This document shows positions 1,321 to 46,650 of a stretch of 64,000 nt of DNA, one piece after another. Both the position numbers and the translations under genes were made by a program. The notes under the pieces are model-generated. The model was not told the origin of the DNA. It ran no database searches and saw only the letters and a list, made by a program, of their open reading frames with translations. Numbering within the stretch: position 1 is the first letter of the stretch; each line of letters begins with the position of its first letter. Source of the DNA: Acholeplasma granularum ATCC 19168 (GTDB lineage Bacteria; Bacillota_I; Bacilli_A; Acholeplasmatales; Acholeplasmataceae); assembly GCF_000526235.1 (NCBI RefSeq), contig NZ_JAFR01000011.1:1-64000 (forward strand), written 5' to 3'.

Positions 1321-4300
1321 ATGAAAAAAACACTAAAATCAATAGTATTAGGAGTTACATTAATTGCAACAGTCTTGATTTTATGGGGTTGTAGTGAGCA
1401 TATTATTGAAAACAATGATAAGTATTTATTAATTAATGAATTTGGGAGTGCTCCAATTTATGTAGAGGGCAAAGCTGAAGCGGGAAATCTTTCAGGAGAT
1501 TTCCCCGGCGTTGTCCGAGTTGCTCATGACTTAAAAAATGACATATTTGATACCACAGGACACAATTCAATTATTACAGACCAAAAAGGCGATTTACTAG
1601 GAAAAGAAAACGTCATCATCATTGGAACTATTGAAAAAAGCAATATGATTAAATCTTTAGCTCAAGAAGGTAAAATCGATACATCAAAATTAGAAGATAA
1701 ATGGGAATCCTATGTCATAGAAGTGGTAAAAGATCCATTTAATGATGGACGTATTAAACGTGCGCTTGTAATTTATGGATCTGATAAAAGAGGTGCAATT
1801 TTTGGCACCTATAAAGTATCTGAATTACTAGGCGTATCACCATTTAAGTTCTTTGCAGATAATGAACCAACACCAATTACTAATTTAGAACTACCAGGGG
1901 ATTACTACGTATTTAAAGATGAGCCTACTGTACAATATCGTGGGATATTTATTAATGATGAAGAAGAGTTAGCTGCATGGAGTCAACAATTTGATGAAGG
2001 AAAATCCATGGGGCCCAACATGTATCATTACATTTTTGAAATGTTATTAAGATTAAATGCAAACTACATATGGCCTGCTATGCATGGCGCATCTGATGCG
2101 TTTAACGATCATCCAGAAAATGCACAACTTGCAGATTACTATGGTATTGTTGTAGGGACATCACACGTTGATATGATGCTTAGAAACAATAACAACGAAT
2201 GGAATTCATTTGTTGCTCAATATAAAATTGAACATAATTATACAAAAGAAATTAAATATGATTATACAGTTAACCCAGAAATTATAAGAAAATATTGGAG
2301 AACAGCTGTTGAGTGGAATAAGGATTATGAAGTGCAATATACTTTAGGTATGCGTGCAGTTCATGATGAACCACTTCCAGCTGAAAACATTAACCAAGCA
2401 CCATGGTATGGTGACAGGGTTTTATTAATGGAAAACATTATCGAAGATCAACGTCAAATTTTACGTGAGGTATTAGATAATCCAACATTAGAAGATGTTT
2501 TTATGGTCTTTACGCCATATAAAGAAGTTCAAGAAATATATAATCAAGGTTTAAAACTACCTGATGATGTAACAATCATTTGGGTAAATGATAACCATGG
2601 ATATATTAGACAATTACCTAACGCAGAAGAACGTAAAAGACCTGGTGGTAATGGTTTATACTACCATAACTCATATTGGGGACCAGATAATGAATCATAC
2701 ATGTGGTTAAATTCTATGCCTCATGCATTTTTCAGACAAGAATTAAGTAAAGCAATCGCCTATAATACTACAAAAAATTGGATATTAAACGTAGGCGATA
2801 TTGTACCAGGTCAGACATCTATGGCATACTTTATTCAATATGCATATGATGCACCTAAATATGATGGTGAGAATGCTTATCAATATGCATATGACTTAGG
2901 TAAAAATGAATTTGGTGAAGCTTATGCAGCTGAAATTGAAGGTATTTTAAGAGATTACGGTTTATATACACATGTAAGAAAACTTGAAATGATGGCTGTT
3001 GATTTATATACAAACACCAACTATTCGGATGAATATGAAAAATTAATGAGTAAATATAAAGATTTACTTGATCGGGCAGAATCTGTTTATGAAAGACTAC
3101 CTGATCATAAGAAAAATGCATTCTACTTGCTCATTCTTTATCAAGTAAGAAGTGCCTACAATTATAATGCACAGTTTTATTATGCAACAAATGCAAATTC
3201 CGCTGTTATTGCAGGTAAACCAATTACCGCATACAATAGTTATCGTCAAACTTTAGATTATTATGATCTTCAAATGTATGAAAATAGTTATTTTAACAAT
3301 GTTGTATCAGGAGGTAAATGGGACGGTATTTTAGAACCAAACTATTATATTCCACCAGTTGCTGCTGGTATTGCTGAAGGTGGATTTGCTGTTGAGACAT
3401 ATCCTGATTTAGGTGGTGTCATTGTAGAAGGTGAAAAAACAGAACAAGATACATCTTTACTAACATTTGGAAACTACGCTCAAGGTAGAAAATTCATAGA
3501 TATATTTAGTAAAGGTGCAAGTGGCATTAACTATACAATCACAACATCAAAACCTTGGATCAAAGTGTCTAAAAACTCAGGACATACCTATGATAATGAA
3601 AGAATTTGGGTTGAAATTGATTATGCAGGATTAGCAAATGAATCTGAAACCGGAAAAATTACGATTGAATATGGCAATCACTCAAAAGATATTCATATTC
3701 AAGTAACCAATCAAAAACTCACACTTAATGAAAAAACATATGTTGAACAAGATGGTTATGTATCCATTGAAGCAGAACACTACTCAGATTTAAAAAACAA
3801 CCATGTACAAACCTGGGAAACACTTAAAGATTTAGGTCGTATAAGTGGAGATATGATGCGTACAGTATCACCAAATCTAGTAGGAACATCCGAGCTAGAG
3901 TATATTGAAAATGGTGCTTATTTATCATATGATGTTTATTTTAATCATACGGGTACATTTGATATGGAAGTATTTAGATTACCTACTTTAAATGCGAATG
4001 GACGCTTAAGATTTGCTGTTCAAGTAAATGATGAAGAACCAACTATATTAGAAGGACAACTAGATGCAGAAGTTGGTAACCTAGATTGGCAATATGGTAT
4101 ATTCAATCAAATATTTAGACATAAATTACCTGTAACTATATCTAAAATAGGTTTAAATACAATAAAAATTTATAGTATTGATCCATACTTAGTATTTGAT
4201 AAGTATGTGATATACACAAAAGGATTTGACCATTCAAACTTAGGTCCAGATGAGTCTTACAATACATATTATAATCAAGATGTTAAATCAAGTTACTATA

Positions 4301-6894
4301 AACCATATTATGAAACAAAGTACTTACCTGAAACTGATTTTAGTTTAATTGAACAATGGGGTAGTGGATATATTGTTGAACAAAACAATAAAGTATTAAT
4401 TGAAGCTGAATATGCTCATGAACAATCTGATAGTGCATATACATCAAATCCATTAAATGGTGGATGGTTATTAAGTTCATTCCAAGGTGGCATGGCAATG
4501 CGAACTAAGGAATTAAACTATAACTATACAGGATTACATACAATTGCACCAACCTTGAACTACAAAGTAGCATTCAATAATACAGGTCAATACCGTGTAT
4601 GGGTACGTGTAGATGCACCACATTACTCAGCCAATTCATTTGGATTTGGTATGAATGGTATTCAAATTTTTGAAGTCAATGGTGGCTTATATAGCTATCA
4701 AACTGAAGAAGCATATATTTGGAAACAAGTTGGTACAATGTCTGTAAGTCAAACAGGCGTTCAAACAGTTCAAATTTATGCAATGGCTGATGGATTAAGT
4801 ATCGATAAAATTTATCTAACAAAAACAAGTGAAAATCCAGAAAATGGTGTTCAAACATCACTTAGAATGCAAACATTTGATACATCTAATATGGTTGATA
4901 CAGTAGATGAAATCACATTAAGAAATCAATTAAAAACTGTAATCGATCAATTTGGTGGCTTATATACAATAGCAAGTACAAATGCTCTAGGAAGCTATTT
5001 AAAATCAGATGTTGAAGCATTTAGACAATCGCTAGATAATCTATATACACTATATAGTCAAACAACAAAATTAAATCCAACAGAAGTATCAAATCATGTA
5101 AATCTAGTTATTGAAACACATCAAACAATGGTTTTAAACAAAAACTTAACAGATGATACACAAAACTATATACTATATGAAGATTTTACTCAAATGACTC
5201 CAGGTTTAGTACCATTTGGCATCCATAAAGATCTATTAATTGGTGATAGTGGATATAGAATATATGAAACAGAAGATACAAAATACTTAAGTGTACGTAC
5301 TTTCCATGAAAATAGAGCAAGAACACAATCAGCATTATTATCATATGACTTTACTAAACTTGCAACAAGTGAACTGGTAATTGAAACTCGCGTACGTTAC
5401 AATGATGCAAGATGGGGCAATATGCTTTATGTATTAAATGAAAATGACCAAATAGCAATATCTATTGCATTTGAAAATTCTAATGGTCCTTCAAGAGATA
5501 TAGTTGCATATAATGGTCAAAACAAGGTCGTTATTGGTCGATTTGAATATGGTGAATGGGTTGATTTAAAAGTTACAACAAATGTTTTAACAAACACATT
5601 TAATATTGAAGTTAACGGGAACTTAGTAGAAACATTATTTGCATACAGAAATGATACTGTTTCATTAAACAAATATCAATTCGGTGTGCAAAATTCGGTG
5701 GATTCTAAATTAGATGTTCAATACATCAGAGCCTATCTAACAGCAGATAGAGTGATCAATGATATTGACGAACTATTACAACTCATATCATTTGATAATC
5801 CAACGAAATACCAAAGTCAAATTCAATTACCTCTCATACCAAATGATTATAAACTTGAAATCATGAGTAGTTCTAACACAAATGTAATAGATCTAGACGG
5901 TAATATTTATCCAAACTTCACAAATGAAAGTATCATACTAGAATTTAGAGTTACACAACTATCAACAAATGAAACTAGAACCATACCAAACGTCACATTT
6001 AATGTTCCAGGTGTAACGACTGAACAATCAAAACAAAGACTATTACTCTTAATTGGTCAAACAAATGAAATACTTCATACATTACCTATCGGTACAACAG
6101 TTGGTACATTTGATCAAGAAATTTATAATGAACTACAAACACACTTAACAAATGCAGACCAATTAAGTGGTGAAGCAACTGTTTACTATAAGGATGTTTT
6201 ACTACTAAATCAACAAATTACTCAAGAACTGGAATTACTATTAGATTCAAGAATTATGACTGAAAAAGTTTTAGATAAGAATTATATATACTATTTATAT
6301 GACAACTTTGATCATTACCTAACAAGTGGCTATCCTTATGGCTTTGAAAAAACAGGTACAGGTGAACATCAAGTTTCAATTCAAAAAGATGGAACAAATG
6401 GATACTTAAGTTATCAAACTGGAGCACCAGGAACTATAACAAATTACTTATCATTTAATGAAAAACTAAGTGGTACTGTACATATTGAAGTCAAAATCAA
6501 AGATTTAACTGTTTCAGCAAGTCAATTTACGAATCTAATTTATTTAATGAATGATAAAGATACAACTAAGTATGCAATTGCAGTTGCATTTGAAAGAAGT
6601 GGTGGTCAAACATACCTTCAATACCATGATGGTAGTGGTTGGAAACGTACAGGTAATGTCAGTTCAAATCTATATACTATTGGCACTGATGCGGTTATAA
6701 AAGTTGTATTAAATATTGATGCAGCAACTTATGATATATATATGAATGATAACTTAGTCTATGAAACAATAGGCTTTAGAGCACCGGATATTAGAACTAA
6801 CTTAACTCGTTTAATGTTTGGTACAAGTAGACAAAACCAAGATGTTATGTATGACTACATAAAGGTTTATAACATAGAACAAGCGGAGGTTTAA
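1321..6894 (+). CDS. GH115-type alpha-glucuronidase lipoprotein (multidomain, 1857 aa)
   Basis: Very large secreted glycoside hydrolase. The N-terminus is a signal peptide ending at an atypical lipobox (LILWGC), suggesting lipid anchoring. Residues ~60-800 look like GH115: YRGIFINDEEEL, an MYHYIFEMLLRLNANYIWPAMHG-type block, and YGIVVGTSHVDMMLRNN. GH115 enzymes remove (4-O-methyl-)glucuronic acid from xylan side chains. After it come a GH115 C-terminal-like beta domain (~806-970, SIEAEHYS), a CBM6/35-like domain (~1018-1180, LIEAEYAHEQ), and two LamG-like modules (~1282-1490 and ~1656-1857) separated by a short linker. An AAAGGA site precedes the ATG. The next gene starts 2 bases after the stop. 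At 1857 residues it is about twice the usual GH115 length because of the extra binding modules. Family call is confident; exact substrate is inferred. Confidence 0.85.
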   Translation: MKKTLKSIVLGVTLIATVLILWGCSEHIIENNDKYLLINEFGSAPIYVEGKAEAGNLSGDFPGVVRVAHDLKNDIFDTTGHNSIITDQKGDLLGKENVIIIGTIEKSNMIKSLAQEGKIDTSKLEDKWESYVIEVVKDPFNDGRIKRALVIYGSDKRGAIFGTYKVSELLGVSPFKFFADNEPTPITNLELPGDYYVFKDEPTVQYRGIFINDEEELAAWSQQFDEGKSMGPNMYHYIFEMLLRLNANYIWPAMHGASDAFNDHPENAQLADYYGIVVGTSHVDMMLRNNNNEWNSFVAQYKIEHNYTKEIKYDYTVNPEIIRKYWRTAVEWNKDYEVQYTLGMRAVHDEPLPAENINQAPWYGDRVLLMENIIEDQRQILREVLDNPTLEDVFMVFTPYKEVQEIYNQGLKLPDDVTIIWVNDNHGYIRQLPNAEERKRPGGNGLYYHNSYWGPDNESYMWLNSMPHAFFRQELSKAIAYNTTKNWILNVGDIVPGQTSMAYFIQYAYDAPKYDGENAYQYAYDLGKNEFGEAYAAEIEGILRDYGLYTHVRKLEMMAVDLYTNTNYSDEYEKLMSKYKDLLDRAESVYERLPDHKKNAFYLLILYQVRSAYNYNAQFYYATNANSAVIAGKPITAYNSYRQTLDYYDLQMYENSYFNNVVSGGKWDGILEPNYYIPPVAAGIAEGGFAVETYPDLGGVIVEGEKTEQDTSLLTFGNYAQGRKFIDIFSKGASGINYTITTSKPWIKVSKNSGHTYDNERIWVEIDYAGLANESETGKITIEYGNHSKDIHIQVTNQKLTLNEKTYVEQDGYVSIEAEHYSDLKNNHVQTWETLKDLGRISGDMMRTVSPNLVGTSELEYIENGAYLSYDVYFNHTGTFDMEVFRLPTLNANGRLRFAVQVNDEEPTILEGQLDAEVGNLDWQYGIFNQIFRHKLPVTISKIGLNTIKIYSIDPYLVFDKYVIYTKGFDHSNLGPDESYNTYYNQDVKSSYYKPYYETKYLPETDFSLIEQWGSGYIVEQNNKVLIEAEYAHEQSDSAYTSNPLNGGWLLSSFQGGMAMRTKELNYNYTGLHTIAPTLNYKVAFNNTGQYRVWVRVDAPHYSANSFGFGMNGIQIFEVNGGLYSYQTEEAYIWKQVGTMSVSQTGVQTVQIYAMADGLSIDKIYLTKTSENPENGVQTSLRMQTFDTSNMVDTVDEITLRNQLKTVIDQFGGLYTIASTNALGSYLKSDVEAFRQSLDNLYTLYSQTTKLNPTEVSNHVNLVIETHQTMVLNKNLTDDTQNYILYEDFTQMTPGLVPFGIHKDLLIGDSGYRIYETEDTKYLSVRTFHENRARTQSALLSYDFTKLATSELVIETRVRYNDARWGNMLYVLNENDQIAISIAFENSNGPSRDIVAYNGQNKVVIGRFEYGEWVDLKVTTNVLTNTFNIEVNGNLVETLFAYRNDTVSLNKYQFGVQNSVDSKLDVQYIRAYLTADRVINDIDELLQLISFDNPTKYQSQIQLPLIPNDYKLEIMSSSNTNVIDLDGNIYPNFTNESIILEFRVTQLSTNETRTIPNVTFNVPGVTTEQSKQRLLLLIGQTNEILHTLPIGTTVGTFDQEIYNELQTHLTNADQLSGEATVYYKDVLLLNQQITQELELLLDSRIMTEKVLDKNYIYYLYDNFDHYLTSGYPYGFEKTGTGEHQVSIQKDGTNGYLSYQTGAPGTITNYLSFNEKLSGTVHIEVKIKDLTVSASQFTNLIYLMNDKDTTKYAIAVAFERSGGQTYLQYHDGSGWKRTGNVSSNLYTIGTDAVIKVVLNIDAATYDIYMNDNLVYETIGFRAPDIRTNLTRLMFGTSRQNQDVMYDYIKVYNIEQAEV

Positions 6895-7925: not shown

Positions 7926-10658
7926 ATGAAAATAAACCAAATAAAAAAATACATACTCATACTCGTTTTTATAAGTTTACTCATACTTAGTGCTTGTCAA
8001 GAACATAAGCAAACTATAGATCCAACGAGTGTGTCATTTAATGAATCTTCAATCACTTTAGATGTGGGTGATGAATATTTATTAGATCCAATTATCTTAC
8101 CAAGTGATGCAACAAATAAAACATTAACTTATGCATCTGATTCTACACATTTTACAGTCACACCAGATGGATTAGTTAAAGCATTAACTCCTGGTAGTGG
8201 TACTGTAACAGTAAATACAATAAATGATTTAAAAGCAACCATTACAGTTACCGTTAAACTTGAAGAAGTTGATGAAATATTAGTATCTAATATTATTATA
8301 AGTATGAGCACATTAGAACTAGAAAAAGATGAAAACTTTCAAATAAATGCTACAATTATTCCCTCAAATGCAACAAATAAAACACTAAATTATGTATCAA
8401 GTGATGAAAGCATTATTGTTGTATCTAATTCAGGATTAGTTCAAGCTAAACAAACTGGTACGGCATCTGTAACTATTTCTAGTATAAATAATGTCAAAAC
8501 AACATTAAATGTCATTGTAAAAGAACAAATCGCACCAATTACAACAAGTACATTAGGTAACTCCTTATATGGTTATAGCCATACTTCAGGATTTGATCTG
8601 ACACATTTATCAGAAGAAAATCCATATATAGAATCAAGTGAATTAAATGAACAAAGAATATATTTTGAAGACTTTAATCGTTCAAACTATATAGTAAGTG
8701 CTAAAATCAAATCAAAAAACAAAACAACTGCAAATATTCCAAAAGCTGGTATTATTGTTGGTCAAAATGAAAGTGGCATTGCAGCTGTTTCAATTGATTT
8801 TAAAACAGGAATAGAAATATATGCAGGTTACCGTACAACTACGGGTCAATGGGATTGGCTCGAGCCGGGTGGAAATTCAAATGCCCCTGTAGCTGTATCA
8901 CCATTAATTGATTTAGTTCATGGTACAACACTGAATGTTGTAAGATTGGGTAACATGATGTATGTATTCATCAACAATACATATATATTTAAACGTGAAA
9001 TACCTAACTTTGGTTTAAATGAAGCCGTAGGGATCATATCATATGGCGCAGCAGCAGTCTTTAGTGACTATTATGTTTCAGATGATTCTACAAAAATCAA
9101 TCAGATGATGTCAAACATGGAAAATAGACAAGGAAAGTCTGTTTTAACCATAGGAGATAGTTTATTTGATTTTTATGATGATGCGATAAATGATACGATT
9201 CAATCATTTATCTATGAATCTGGATATACCCATTTTTATAAAGATAATGTTGGTGGATCTAAGATTACCCCTGAGGTGAATCTAACAGGTAGAAGTACTG
9301 TTAATCATATTGATGTAGGTACATATGAAGCTTATGATGATCTAGACTTAATTATTATTCAAAGAGGTACAAATGATGTAGCTAATTGGAGAACAAATAA
9401 CGTTATTAAAGGCGAAATTGGAGACGGCAACAAAAATACGACATTTGGTGCAATGGCTTATATTATGAACTATTTTAGAATAAAACATCCAAATGCACGC
9501 ATCATTTGGTCGACAATTATTTATCGTGCAGACACAGATTTTGTTCAAGATCATGAAACATATAACAATGCAGTTTATGAAATTGCACAATCATATAATG
9601 TTGAAGTCTTTGATTTAAGAACCGCTATTGGAATTAACCAATCAAACTATTCAACTTATTTATCAGGTGACAAATTACACTTATCTGCTCAAGGTGAAAT
9701 TAAAATGAAAAATGCATGGTTGAATTATTTAGATGATGTGTTACCTGAAAATAGAGTAAACATCACAGCATCAAAAACAAACTATGTTATCGATTTAGCA
9801 AGTACAAATAGTTTAGAGCTAACATATGACGTTACTGGAACACCAGCACCAAGTGTTACAATAAATACAAACAGTGACACAGGATTTACTGTTGATCCAT
9901 TAAATCCAAATACATTTATTTTTGATACTGTGGGTCAATATGTATTTGAAGTGTTTGCTGAAAATGAGTTCGACTCTGATCTAATAGTGTTTAATATTAC
10001 AATAATTGATTCATCTTCTCAAATAGAAACAATACTACTTCAAGATAATTATGAAACGGAAGTAAAATATTTACCTCCAAAAGTAACAAATTCTGGTAGT
10101 GTAAATGTAGTAGGCGATCAATTAGTATATCATGTTGGCGCTACAGGTGGCAGTGCATTTGTAGATTACTTATTTGATCATACATTACAAGGTGTGGTGG
10201 GTACTGAGATTACATTTAAATATGATGGTAGTGGTAATGCAAGTTTCATGAATCTACTTTACATGTATTCTGCTAATAACAATGCAACTGATATTGGAGG
10301 TTCTATTGCTTATTCATTTGCAGTAGGTGGTAGAAATGATCAATCAGATCATGTTGCTCATTTAAGAGTTAATAGAATGAATAATACAGCTGGAAGTGAT
10401 GCAATTAGTTATAATGGTAGTTATATTTATATTAATAAAAATCAAACATATACGATGCGTGTGATTACAGATTATACAAATAAAATAAATCATCTTTACT
10501 TTAAAGGTGGAGATTTCAATAATGGTGAATTTGAATTTATTGGTACTTTTGGTTTCAGAAATGAATCAACTGTAACTAGAGTCCTTAGAACGGGTTCTGA
10601 TAAAGCAAATTCAACTGGTTACATTGATCAAATTAAAGTTTACTCAGTAGAAAATTAA
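7926..10658 (+). CDS. Big_2 / LamG / SGNH-esterase lipoprotein
   Basis: 910-residue lipoprotein with lipobox LILSAC (Cys24). Domains in order: two bacterial Ig-like (Big_2) repeats (~33-110, ~120-195; both contain PSNATNKTL/PSDATNKTL-type motifs), a LamG-like domain (~200-395), an SGNH/GDSL hydrolase (~400-600), an Ig-like domain (~605-690) and a C-terminal LamG-like module (~700-910). The SGNH blocks are visible: GDSLFDF (Ser), VGGS (Gly), GTND (Asn) and DKLHLS (Asp/His). Such enzymes deacetylate polysaccharides. Next to a GH115 glucuronidase, an acetyl-xylan esterase role is plausible, but the substrate is inference. It ends at a strong bidirectional terminator facing the gal operon. Confidence 0.8.
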   Translation: MKINQIKKYILILVFISLLILSACQEHKQTIDPTSVSFNESSITLDVGDEYLLDPIILPSDATNKTLTYASDSTHFTVTPDGLVKALTPGSGTVTVNTINDLKATITVTVKLEEVDEILVSNIIISMSTLELEKDENFQINATIIPSNATNKTLNYVSSDESIIVVSNSGLVQAKQTGTASVTISSINNVKTTLNVIVKEQIAPITTSTLGNSLYGYSHTSGFDLTHLSEENPYIESSELNEQRIYFEDFNRSNYIVSAKIKSKNKTTANIPKAGIIVGQNESGIAAVSIDFKTGIEIYAGYRTTTGQWDWLEPGGNSNAPVAVSPLIDLVHGTTLNVVRLGNMMYVFINNTYIFKREIPNFGLNEAVGIISYGAAAVFSDYYVSDDSTKINQMMSNMENRQGKSVLTIGDSLFDFYDDAINDTIQSFIYESGYTHFYKDNVGGSKITPEVNLTGRSTVNHIDVGTYEAYDDLDLIIIQRGTNDVANWRTNNVIKGEIGDGNKNTTFGAMAYIMNYFRIKHPNARIIWSTIIYRADTDFVQDHETYNNAVYEIAQSYNVEVFDLRTAIGINQSNYSTYLSGDKLHLSAQGEIKMKNAWLNYLDDVLPENRVNITASKTNYVIDLASTNSLELTYDVTGTPAPSVTINTNSDTGFTVDPLNPNTFIFDTVGQYVFEVFAENEFDSDLIVFNITIIDSSSQIETILLQDNYETEVKYLPPKVTNSGSVNVVGDQLVYHVGATGGSAFVDYLFDHTLQGVVGTEITFKYDGSGNASFMNLLYMYSANNNATDIGGSIAYSFAVGGRNDQSDHVAHLRVNRMNNTAGSDAISYNGSYIYINKNQTYTMRVITDYTNKINHLYFKGGDFNNGEFEFIGTFGFRNESTVTRVLRTGSDKANSTGYIDQIKVYSVEN

Positions 10659-15802: not shown

Positions 15803-15846
15803 TGGGACAAATTTGTCATGTATAACGTCATAACTGATGTTATAAT
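15803..15846 (+). promoter_or_regulatory. ComR/Rgg-like box plus extended -10 promoter of capsule locus
   Basis: TGGGACAAATTTGTCA (15803-15818) contains the perfect 12-bp palindrome GACA-AATT-TGTC centred at 15811.5. About 30 bases downstream is an extended -10 (TG at 15838-15839, TATAAT at 15841-15846) with no good -35. The centre would sit near -41, the position of an activator site. The identical 16 bases occur at 39674-39689, also ahead of an extended -10. The half-site GGGACA and GACA-N4-TGTC core recall streptococcal ComR boxes (from memory). No protein-DNA evidence is available. Confidence 0.55.
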
Positions 15847-15953: not shown

Positions 15954-16574
15954 TTGGTAAAAAAAGATTTTTTTAAACCAACTATAATCTATAAAGAGTA
16001 CATGATTTTAAACTTAATAGAAAAAGATCCTAATATTACTCAAAGAGAAATCTCAACAGCAATTAACATTGCTGTTTCTATGGTTAATACATACATTGAT
16101 ATGTATGAAAAAGAAGGTTTGTTACAAAAAGAGCATATCTCAACTAAAACAGTAAGGTATCATATTACAAAAAAAGGTATTGAGCGAAGAAAGTTTTTGA
16201 ATATAGGATATCTAGATAATGCACAAACAATATATGATTCAGCAAAAGAAAACATTGACGCATTTCTTTATAACCTATCAAAAAAAGGTTATAAAGATAT
16301 TTTACTATATGGTGCAGGAGAAGTGGCTGAGATATTACTTCATACAATTACTTCTAAAAACTCACCAATTAATGTAATAGCAGTCATTGATGATAATCAT
16401 AAAAAACAGCAAAAATATTTAGTTAATAAACAAATTATTTCATTTAAAGAGGCTATGAATTATAAACATGATGCGATATTAATATCGAGTTACGCAAATA
16501 ATGAAATAATATATATGAACCTTGTTAATACGGGTTATGATAAAGATAAAATATTAAAATACTTTGATATCTAA
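15954..16574 (+). CDS. winged-helix regulator fused to a Rossmann (PglD/CapD-N-like) domain
   Basis: 206 residues. Residues ~10-80 form a winged helix-turn-helix (ITQREISTAINIAVSMVNTYID then a wing with KTVRYHITKKGIERR). Residues ~100-206 form a Rossmann-like fold with LLYGAGEVAEIL, VIAVIDD and HDAILISSY, like the nucleotide-binding N-terminal domain of polysaccharide dehydratases. As first gene of the capsule locus it is probably a local regulator that senses a nucleotide or sugar nucleotide; that role is inferred. The start is a TTG at 15954 with an AAGGG 13 bases upstream, which is weak. Gene ends 17 bases before the aminotransferase start and is probably cotranscribed. Confidence 0.65.
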   Translation: MVKKDFFKPTIIYKEYMILNLIEKDPNITQREISTAINIAVSMVNTYIDMYEKEGLLQKEHISTKTVRYHITKKGIERRKFLNIGYLDNAQTIYDSAKENIDAFLYNLSKKGYKDILLYGAGEVAEILLHTITSKNSPINVIAVIDDNHKKQQKYLVNKQIISFKEAMNYKHDAILISSYANNEIIYMNLVNTGYDKDKILKYFDI

Positions 16575-39673: not shown

Positions 39674-39718
39674 TGGGACAAATTTGTCACATATATTAGT
39701 AAATGTTAGTGCTATCAT
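39674..39718 (+). promoter_or_regulatory. ComR/Rgg-like box plus extended -10 promoter
   Basis: TGGGACAAATTTGTCA (39674-39689), identical to the capsule-locus site, with palindrome GACA-AATT-TGTC centred at 39682.5. An extended -10 follows (TG at 39710-39711, TATCAT at 39713-39718), again about 30 bases from the centre. It precedes the small ORF and the two Rgg-like genes, the expected place for autoregulation. Confidence 0.55.
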
Positions 39719-39829
39719 AAACTTAAAGAGTCTAGTATTTTTTAAGATTCTTTAGAAAAATTTAACATTTTGTTATTTATGGGGATAAGTAGCACACAAA
39801 AGATTTTCATATTTGAGTGAAAACATTCA

Positions 39830-39910
39830 ATGGAAGCTAATATCTTCCTTAATTGCTTAATTTATAGCTATCTTTGTATCATAGCTATGAATATTGGGGG
39901 AAGCATTTAA
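39830..39910 (+). CDS. candidate short hydrophobic peptide (26 aa)
   Basis: ATG-started ORF of 26 codons downstream of the palindromic promoter and upstream of the Rgg-like genes. It encodes a strongly hydrophobic peptide starting MEANIFLN and ending CIIAMNIGGSI. Short hydrophobic peptides with an Ile-rich C-terminus near an Rgg gene are typical pheromone precursors (SHP type). Against it: the ribosome site is weak (GAGTG 12 bases upstream) and the length could be chance in AT-rich DNA. Treat as a hypothesis. Confidence 0.25.
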   Translation: MEANIFLNCLIYSYLCIIAMNIGGSI

Positions 39911-40081
39911 GGGAGATACTAGGTTTTTTTATTTATATAAAGTAAATATATAAACTTTTTACTTAAGTATAACCTATATATTTTAAAATATAATAGTTTT
40001 TATATGATAAGATAAATTATACTAGATGAGCTATTTAAACCTAATAAATTCATACTTTAATGAGATTGAGGTAAATGTCTT

Positions 40082-41053
40082 ATGTATTCAAGTATTGATA
40101 TAATAAAGGCGCTAGATAAAATTAGAACTAAAAATAAATTGACAATTCAAGAATTTGTATCTGGCGTTATGTCCCGTAAAAAATATACTAGAATTTCTAA
40201 TAATGAAGCAGATATTACATTATTAGAAGTATCTAAACTTTTATCAAAGGTTGGTATTCCTTTACAAGAGTTTGCTATATTTACTGCAAATATTATAGAA
40301 ACAGCAAACCATAATGAGACCTCTTTTTATATGTCATGCATCCATGGTAATTACGAGACTGCCTATAAACAACACCTTCCTAATTTTAATTTAAATAACT
40401 TAAAAACTACCTTAGGTAATAAAGCCGTACATGCAATTTATGAACTTATGCAATATAAACTAAACTTTCAAAGTCTACAAGAATCAAGTCATAAATTAAG
40501 AATGAAAATGGATTTGAAAGAGTTAATAAAAGATAAAATTTTAACAGATAGTACAATTGGTGCCTTATATGCTTATGTACATTTAGGAACCGATATAGAA
40601 AGAAGACAAATTTCAAAATATTTATATGATGCTATTTTTGATAGTTCATATAAATACTATCTACTATTTAATGAAATATCTAGAAGTATCTTGCAAATAA
40701 CTGCAATTTTATCATTAACTTTACTTAGTGATATTAAAAAAGAAGAAATAAAAACATTAGAGTCTATTATTAAATATACATTTGAGTTTCATACAAGATC
40801 GAGATTATCAATTATGGACTATAACATTTTTAAAGTATTAAATGATTTTCAAAATAAAAACAATTTATTAAATGAGTATATTGTTTATTACTATATAAGT
40901 TCATATATTACAATCTATCAAAAAGAAGATGTTGAACCATTTATAATGGTCAAAGAAGATGACTTAAATATTTATAAAAAGTATTTAAAAGATTCATCCT
41001 TTACAAGTGGAAGAATGTATGAAAGGTTGTTGTCTGATGATAAAATATGGTAG
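40082..41053 (+). CDS. Rgg/MutR-like helix-turn-helix regulator
   Basis: 323 residues. Residues ~8-66 form an XRE/Rgg-type HTH (ALDKIRTKNKLTIQEFVSGVMSRKKYTRI then LLEVSKLLSKVGIPLQEF). The remaining ~250 residues are helical, with no enzyme motif, and fit the TPR-like peptide-binding part of RRNPP regulators. This is a fold-level assignment; identity to known Rgg proteins looks low. A GAGG site lies upstream of the ATG. It overlaps the following homologous gene. Likely controls its own leader and possibly the capsule locus through the shared palindrome. Confidence 0.55.
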   Translation: MYSSIDIIKALDKIRTKNKLTIQEFVSGVMSRKKYTRISNNEADITLLEVSKLLSKVGIPLQEFAIFTANIIETANHNETSFYMSCIHGNYETAYKQHLPNFNLNNLKTTLGNKAVHAIYELMQYKLNFQSLQESSHKLRMKMDLKELIKDKILTDSTIGALYAYVHLGTDIERRQISKYLYDAIFDSSYKYYLLFNEISRSILQITAILSLTLLSDIKKEEIKTLESIIKYTFEFHTRSRLSIMDYNIFKVLNDFQNKNNLLNEYIVYYYISSYITIYQKEDVEPFIMVKEDDLNIYKKYLKDSSFTSGRMYERLLSDDKIW

Positions 41054-41960
41054 TTTTTATAAAGTATTAGATGAATTAAGAATTGCTAAAAATATGACAA
41101 TTTCTGAGATTACAGACGGTATTATTTCTGAAAGAACCTACCTTAGACTTATGAAAGATGATAGTAAGGTAAACTTTACCACATTAAGTAAATTACTTTC
41201 TAAACTTGATATCAACGTTCCACAATTTCTACAATTTTTAATTCACCATAATAAAAAAGATAATGGCATCGCTCGTTTCCTTATCCGTGTACATGTTGGA
41301 CATTTCACAGATATAAAACCGATTTATGAAGAGATGAAATCATTTAAATCTGATAGTGAAATTGAAATGTGTGTAGTAAGTGCAATGATGCTTATTTATT
41401 TATTTATGATAGATGAATTAAGCTTAGAAAATCTACAAGCCGAATATAAGAAGATATTAAAAATACTTGATACGTATAATCAAAATAATATGATTATTAT
41501 ATATTTAAAACTGCTTTATCAAGTACATTTTAAAGATGATTTAATCATTGATATTAAAACCTATACTCAAATACTTTCTGAATATAAATCTACACTTTCA
41601 ATTCTTTATTATATTTTAAGTTTAGATATTATGCTACTTTATGTATCTGAGAATAAATTACTTGAATTACCAGATTATGAAAAGTTACTTAATATTTATA
41701 AATTATATTATCCATCATTTAATATGAAAAATTTAGAATTTAATCTAGAAAGCTATACAGCTTATTATTATCAACTTAAAAATGATTATAAAATGAGGGA
41801 TGATTACTTATTTAAAAGTATTAATAATGCTTTTGTAGTTATGAGTCCACATTTACATAGTAAATATAAAAGTGTTATCGAAACGACATTTAACATAAAA
41901 ATAGATGAATTTTTAGATAGTTATCTTGAAAAAATGACTACAAAAATAGAAATTAAATAA
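41037..41960 (+). CDS. second Rgg/MutR-like helix-turn-helix regulator
   Basis: 308 residues, paralogous to the protein just upstream: HTH VLDELRIAKNMTISEITDGIISERTYLRL followed by FTTLSKLLSKLDINVPQFLQFL, then a helical, Tyr/Leu-rich effector region. The N-terminal pattern (HTH, then 'LLxKLxIxxxxF') matches the Rgg family. Start taken as ATG 41037 (AAAGG ten bases upstream), giving a 17-base overlap with the first regulator; the longer upstream frame encodes an unconvincing extension. Ends at a strong terminator. Confidence 0.58.
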   Translation: MIKYGSFYKVLDELRIAKNMTISEITDGIISERTYLRLMKDDSKVNFTTLSKLLSKLDINVPQFLQFLIHHNKKDNGIARFLIRVHVGHFTDIKPIYEEMKSFKSDSEIEMCVVSAMMLIYLFMIDELSLENLQAEYKKILKILDTYNQNNMIIIYLKLLYQVHFKDDLIIDIKTYTQILSEYKSTLSILYYILSLDIMLLYVSENKLLELPDYEKLLNIYKLYYPSFNMKNLEFNLESYTAYYYQLKNDYKMRDDYLFKSINNAFVVMSPHLHSKYKSVIETTFNIKIDEFLDSYLEKMTTKIEIK

Positions 41961-46498: not shown

Positions 46499-46503
46499 GA
46501 AAT

Positions 46504-46650
46504 TACCATAAAGAGAAGGCAAGAGACAAGCTCTATGACCCTTCAGCAACCTAGTATAATATATACCAAGGTGCTAAAGCTTGAATGATGGCATAGAATA
46601 TTTGATTAATATGTCTAAATGCCATCAAACAATGGCATTTTTCTTTTTTG
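46504..46650 (+). ncRNA. SAM-I (S-box) riboswitch with transcription attenuator
   Basis: Aptamer core matches the S-box: AUAAAGAGAAGGC, then GACCCUUCAGCAACC and AAGGUGCUAA. P1 is UACCAU (46504-46509) with AUGGCA (46588-46593). Expression platform: antiterminator GATGGCAT (46587-46594) with ATGCCATC (46619-46626); terminator ATGCCAT (46619-46625) with ATGGCAT (46632-46638) followed by a U-run. SAM binding would hold the P1 3' strand, free 46619-46625 and terminate: an OFF switch. SAM binding itself is from family knowledge. Confidence 0.88.

Follow-up and report, generated by a model that had tools for sequence, protein, structure and literature searches.

Cell-to-cell control by peptides through Rgg and ComR regulators is a type of signalling known from streptococci. 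In the ComR box, a pseudo-palindrome, the inner repeat is GACA/TGTC, and its GACA is read by residues R35 and R39 of the regulator; GACATATATGTC is the core of the Streptococcus thermophilus comX box in the crystal structure (PMC5131891). In S. suis, promoters of this kind, which have no -35 element, were found by the pattern GACA-N4-TGTCCTG-N20-TA, that is, with 23 bases between TGTC and the -10, and the comS and shp genes next to such boxes are often unannotated (PMC4072589). Two other described systems are close enough to be compared: the Rgg/SHP quorum sensing that acts on capsule in S. zooepidemicus (PMC6482233) and S. pneumoniae (PMC5913232), and the PlcR-PapR type, in which the likeness lies outside the DNA studied here.

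That DNA, the window, is the whole stretch of 64,000 nucleotides that was analysed, and it belongs to an Acholeplasma genome of 1,453,539 bases in 14 contigs. It carries the 16-mer TGGGACAAATTTGTCA, whose core GACAAATTTGTC is a perfect 12-bp palindrome, in two copies (Table 1). With the streptococcal comS and comX promoters these copies share the GACA-N4-TGTC core, the 23-24 nt to the -10 and the lack of a -35, as well as a box adjoining the locus of an Rgg-family regulator with R-x3-R in its recognition helix. In contrast to ComRS, the Acholeplasma boxes have asymmetric TTTGGGACA/TGTCA flanks, which differ from those of the ComR box and presumably set specificity, and they go with two tandem regulators; the adjacent target would be a structured RNA rather than comS, and the second target a capsule locus rather than comX. 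The Rgg/SHP systems have in common with the window an Rgg-type regulator near an inverted repeat and capsule as the proposed output. Unlike in those systems, no SHP gene was found by RggA-RggB, the capsule promoter itself carries the box, and the arrangement is known here from sequence alone.

Table 1. Positions of the features discussed, in window coordinates unless a contig is named. G000 is the genome of the window; G002 (Acholeplasma laidlawii), G003 and G004 (Acholeplasmataceae bacterium UBA4853) belong to its genus group, and G019 (Acholeplasma sp.) to another genus.
Feature	Position	Strand	Description and basis
Box copy 1, TGGGACAAATTTGTCA	15803-15818	+	core GACA-AATT-TGTC; sequence match and genome-wide pattern scan
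Extended -10 of promoter P1	15838-15846	+	TGtTATAAT; TGTC-N23-TATAAT, without -35
EPS promoter P2	15883-15911	+	TTGTAA-17-TAAAAT; aligned with promoters of seven genus mates
Conserved repeat after P2	15916-15937	+	ATTGTTCR..AAACGAACA type; promoter alignment
EPS/capsule biosynthesis locus	15954-36903	+	LegC-like aminotransferase, EPS sugar transferase, FnlA, WbcJ, glycosyltransferases, NTP transferase, others
First EPS/capsule gene	15954-16574	+	winged-HTH (MarR_EPS-like, below cut-off) and sugar-nucleotide-type domain
Box copy 2	39674-39689	+	identical to copy 1; kept beside RggA-RggB in G002 and G003, near the pair in G004 and G019
Extended -10 after copy 2	39710-39718	+	TGcTATCAT; TGTC-N24-TATCAT
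Predicted structured RNA	39722-39930	+	5' hairpin, GGGGA motif, terminator; z = -6.3
Hairpin with GGGG loop	39771-39794	+	TGTTATTTAT-GGGG-ATAAGTAGCA; fold prediction
Long hairpin and U-tract	39838-39930	+	intrinsic-terminator-like; fold prediction
RggA	40082-41053	+	323 aa, Rgg/RRNPP-like regulator; orthologues, profile, fold
RggB	41037-41960	+	about 307 aa from the start shared by orthologues; overlaps rggA; orthologues, profile, fold
Divergent receptor-propeptide locus	G000:C6:249357-250558 (L167)		counterparts L081, L128, L129, L168-L171

The main reading, to which we give a probability of about 0.72, is that TGGGACAAATTTGTCA is the operator of an Rgg/ComR-type (RRNPP) activator encoded at 40082-41960, with the promoter of its own locus as the ancestral target and the capsule recruited in this lineage. 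The box would most likely be read by RggB or by an RggA/RggB dimer, and the regulator would contact the GACA/TGTC half-sites and so replace the missing -35 at the extended -10. The conserved ancestral target would be the promoter beside the regulator genes, from which this species and two relatives may make a structured, terminated RNA. An identical box, added upstream of the normal EPS/capsule promoter, would then place the capsule under the same regulator. Binding, activation, the choice of regulator and control by a ligand are what we infer from the sequence in this scheme.

The original prediction had described an identical palindromic box occurring twice in 64 kb, about 30 bases from the palindrome centre to an extended -10 without a good -35, with the centre near -41/-42, as for a class-II-like activator. 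These claims were borne out. Both copies are exact, and the palindrome centre lies 29.5 bases upstream of the first base of the hexamer at copy 1 (15841-15846) and 30.5 bases upstream at copy 2 (39713-39718). The two spacings are one base apart, and the centres are at about -41.5 and -42.5, respectively, which supports the activator position. The nearest -35-like word is TTGTCA within the box itself, which at 22-23 nt from the -10 is too far away, so neither box has a usable -35.

Chance identity of the two boxes had been judged unlikely, and the counts agree. Repeated 16-mers are generally common: the window has 39 and a shuffle about 13. One in the window combines at least six G/C with a palindromic core of 10 bp or longer, and none does so in 200 dinucleotide shuffles of it. 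The expectation for further copies of TGGGACAAATTTGTCA is 4e-5 for the window and 1e-3 for the genome, and the search of the 1.45-Mb genome with one mismatch allowed returned the two exact promoter copies and no independent further site.

The tandem regulators can be called Rgg-like at the family level, as judged from their profile matches and predicted folds to Rgg/RRNPP structures. In Pfam, the HTH domains of RggA and RggB are weak and below the cut-off. Profiles built from five orthologues of each and searched against the PDB gave credible matches to Rgg-family structures only: the S. salivarius regulator 9lth, Rgg2 (4yv6, 5w4m), the MutR-family 10lg and Listeria Lmo0325 (4ryk). By fold, the RggB model (mean pLDDT 81) matches ComR, PlcR, Rgg3, PrgX and Rgg2 best; for the RggA model (pLDDT 77, with a low-confidence HTH at 42-50) the matches, to PlcR, Rgg2, PrgX and the 9lth regulator, were weaker. 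With TM values of 0.35-0.47, all of these are matches at the family level only. Both models have an N-terminal XRE-type HTH and an all-helical, TPR-like C-terminal domain, which is the RRNPP fold, less clearly in RggA. At the positions of ComR R35/R39 in the recognition helix, RggB has R-x3-R in five of five orthologues and RggA has K/R-x3-R. When named genomes were scanned for RggA, a single-protein search found none and an alignment search found three.

The distribution of the box across genomes follows that of the regulator pair. The pattern GGACANNNNTGTCN{22,26}TANNNT was scanned over 88 Acholeplasmataceae genomes. The genome of the window has two matches only, which are the two sites studied, and there is one match each in G002, G003, G004 and G019, the others with clear RggA-RggB orthologues. 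This means that all five genomes with the pair (two genera) have the pattern, either beside the pair or within about 11 kb of it, and none of the four genus mates without the pair has a match. Among the remaining genomes it occurs in 11 of 83, at sites that lack the TTTGGGACA..TGTCA flanks (p ~1e-4 for the difference, a figure in which closeness to the pair is not yet counted). The number of independent lineages is about four, because G002 and G003 are close relatives.

The copies linked to rgg all have exactly 24 bases from TGTC to the -10. In G002 and G003 the box precedes rggA by about 400 bp and borders a block conserved between the two genomes; there the box is 97% and the -10 region 80% identical, against 27-43% for most of the upstream sequence. 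In G004 it lies 10.4 kb upstream of the pair on the same strand and precedes a zinc-ribbon membrane protein and an InlB-repeat lipoprotein of 2,623 aa, with the rgg pair next in line after these two genes. The G019 box comes directly after the pair and precedes a zinc-ribbon protein of 99 aa. From these sequences, the box appears to be inherited together with its regulator pair. Two candidates that match with two mismatches in G002 and G003, TTGGACAAAATTGTCA and TGGGACAAATCTATCA, were dropped because they lie in uninterrupted coding sequence and have no -10. As a side observation, the genes that the G004 box would drive (L074:6584-16841) encode the zinc-ribbon/DUF898-like protein, of 749 aa, and the large lipoprotein, with about 20 Listeria-Bacteroides repeats, and surface proteins would be alternative box targets in that genome.

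Copy 2 had been placed before the Rgg-like genes, at their leader. It is indeed upstream of them, but what it directly precedes is a predicted terminated RNA, and rgg begins only beyond the terminator. The segment folds far better than its shuffles, and its counterpart in G003 does so as well (z = -7.2). Between G002 and G003 the RNA is about 95% identical over 174 bases; the first 30 bases are unlike in sequence, yet the hairpin is kept, and beyond the terminator the sequence diverges. The string TATGGGGxTAAGTAGCA follows the box in G004 too. When three sequences, which are too few for covariation proof, were folded to a consensus, covariation added no net gain (term +0.69); support for the fold therefore comes from the single-sequence z-scores and the G002/G003 conservation. 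Rfam returned no credible match for the copy 2 leader, and a scan for RNA targets among the start regions within the window gave unspecific matches. We infer that copy 2 directly serves a small structured RNA of about 210 nt, whose existence and role are read from these fold predictions.

The alternative with the most in its favour, though on balance a doubtful one, is that copy 2 is an autoregulatory promoter of rggA-rggB and the terminator hairpin an attenuator in the rgg leader. The box is on the same strand, 393 nt upstream of rggA, the terminator-like fold is strong, and in G004 the box, two genes and the rgg pair follow one another on one strand. Against this, conservation falls after the terminator, a separate TGnTAnnAT-like element precedes rgg in G002 and G003, and the box of G019 comes after the pair. 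Clearly less probable is that the box-driven transcript by rggAB encodes a very short unannotated pheromone instead of a functional RNA. This is the position in which comS and shp genes lie, and a hydrophobic ORF of 26 codons is present at 39830-39910, but no such ORF is conserved among the window, G003 and G002, and the changes between them preserve base pairs. No recognisable pheromone or propeptide gene adjoins the RggA-RggB pair, and therefore the pair of the window is not filed as a complete RRNPP quorum-sensing system.

On the operator reading, copy 1 would connect the capsule to this regulator. Orthologues of the gene that opens the EPS/capsule locus are present in each of the eight genus genomes, and all eight loci have a TTGnnn-TATAAT-like promoter with the ATTGTTCR..AAACGAACA repeat after it. 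In the window, the box promoter P1 is additional and stands about 70 bases upstream of the retained P2. None of the seven genus mates, three of which have RggA-RggB and the box, carries a box upstream of the orthologous gene. By this comparison, P2 is the ancestral EPS promoter and P1 with its box an addition, seen in this species only. The repeat, present in 8/8 genomes, is possibly the operator of the winged-HTH regulator encoded at 15954. The original prediction was correct that copy 1 precedes the capsule locus, and the tie of the box to the Rgg-like genes is upheld by comparative genomics and by the match of box and HTH to those of ComR. The proposed capsule link is narrower than put forward: it is additional to a conserved promoter, and since the box is missing at all seven other EPS promoters, the link is a gain in this lineage. 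The gain is statistically hard to dismiss, without conservation behind it.

The occurrence of the capsule copy in one species only, with its -10 one base closer, does count against the operator reading. Another reading is that copy 2 is a real operator and copy 1 a functionless chance match, not kept in seven genus mates, where the conserved downstream promoter suffices. However, only 1e-3 copies are expected per genome, and copy 1 is intergenic, in the correct orientation and at ComR-type spacing from an extended -10, all of which makes a chance match quite improbable. Least probable of all is that the box is bound by some other regulator, such as the 15954 winged-HTH protein, and lies near Rgg by coincidence: the gene adjoins copy 1, but it is found in all eight genus genomes, seven of which have the different shared repeat and no box there, and the box tracks the Rgg pair instead.

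The reading of the boxes as RRNPP operators is made much more likely by a paralogous circuit elsewhere in the genome. All eight genus genomes have a second Rgg-like regulator (G000:C6:249357-250292 in the genome of the window, where it shares 58% identity with the A. laidlawii protein). A gene divergent from it encodes a peptide of 55-60 aa. This peptide carries a Sec-type signal and the conserved motif (D/G)F(E/D/K)D, and in most species its C-terminus is of a kind exemplified by PYGPVHP, PYGPVNP and IAGVVHP. The promoter of the propeptide has GACAnATATGTCGTG, of the GACA-N4-TGTC type, exactly 24 bases before the -10. The pattern GACANNNNTGTCGTGN{20,22}TANNNT has one site per genome in 8/8, always at the propeptide gene, and its reversed control has no site in the eight genomes. 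A component of an oligopeptide importer, an SBP_bac_5 protein, is likewise encoded in all eight.

This locus is apparently a peptide-pheromone (RRNPP) system in Acholeplasma, a Mollicute. A profile of the receptor found no relative in the PDB, and its family membership rests on homology to the pair, on the HTH and on the gene arrangement. A receptor with a Sec-type propeptide and a short conserved C-terminus resembles the PlcR-PapR type, from which the Acholeplasma locus differs in the divergent orientation of receptor and propeptide. Further Rgg-like receptors with divergent secreted peptides of 53-81 aa were also seen (L172-L178, in G001, G005, G007, G004 and G020), with other inverted repeats at the same position, for example GGACAGTTTTGCCC and GGACTAAATTGTCC. 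Of the 88 genomes of the family, 43 have related receptors, and none was found in the small-genome genus g8.

One could tentatively consider an Acholeplasma RRNPP network, for which we would give somewhat less than even odds. It would consist of the genus-wide receptor-propeptide circuit and the tandem RggA-RggB, which might read the asymmetric TTTGGGACA-N4-TGTCA as a heterodimer. The pair would have a structured regulatory RNA as its conserved target in several species and would newly have captured the capsule in this one. In the open full-text literature, no link between RRNPP and Mollicutes and no Rgg regulators in Acholeplasma were found, and three surveys of RRNPP leave Mollicutes unmentioned in their main text. 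If the operator reading is true, signalling between cells by peptides, as in the Rgg/ComR systems, extends into the Mollicutes, and one box predicts capsule production in an Acholeplasma. It would also be a clear example from nature of a new operator placed before an ancestral promoter, and of a regulator with an RNA as its conserved target.

Some other features of the window were recorded along the way. A protein of 1,857 aa with glycosyl hydrolase family 115 domains is encoded at 1321-6894, and its gene is adjoined by one for a GDSL protein with Big_2 domains (7926-10658). A SAM riboswitch lies at 46503-46594 (RF00162, 55.9 bits).
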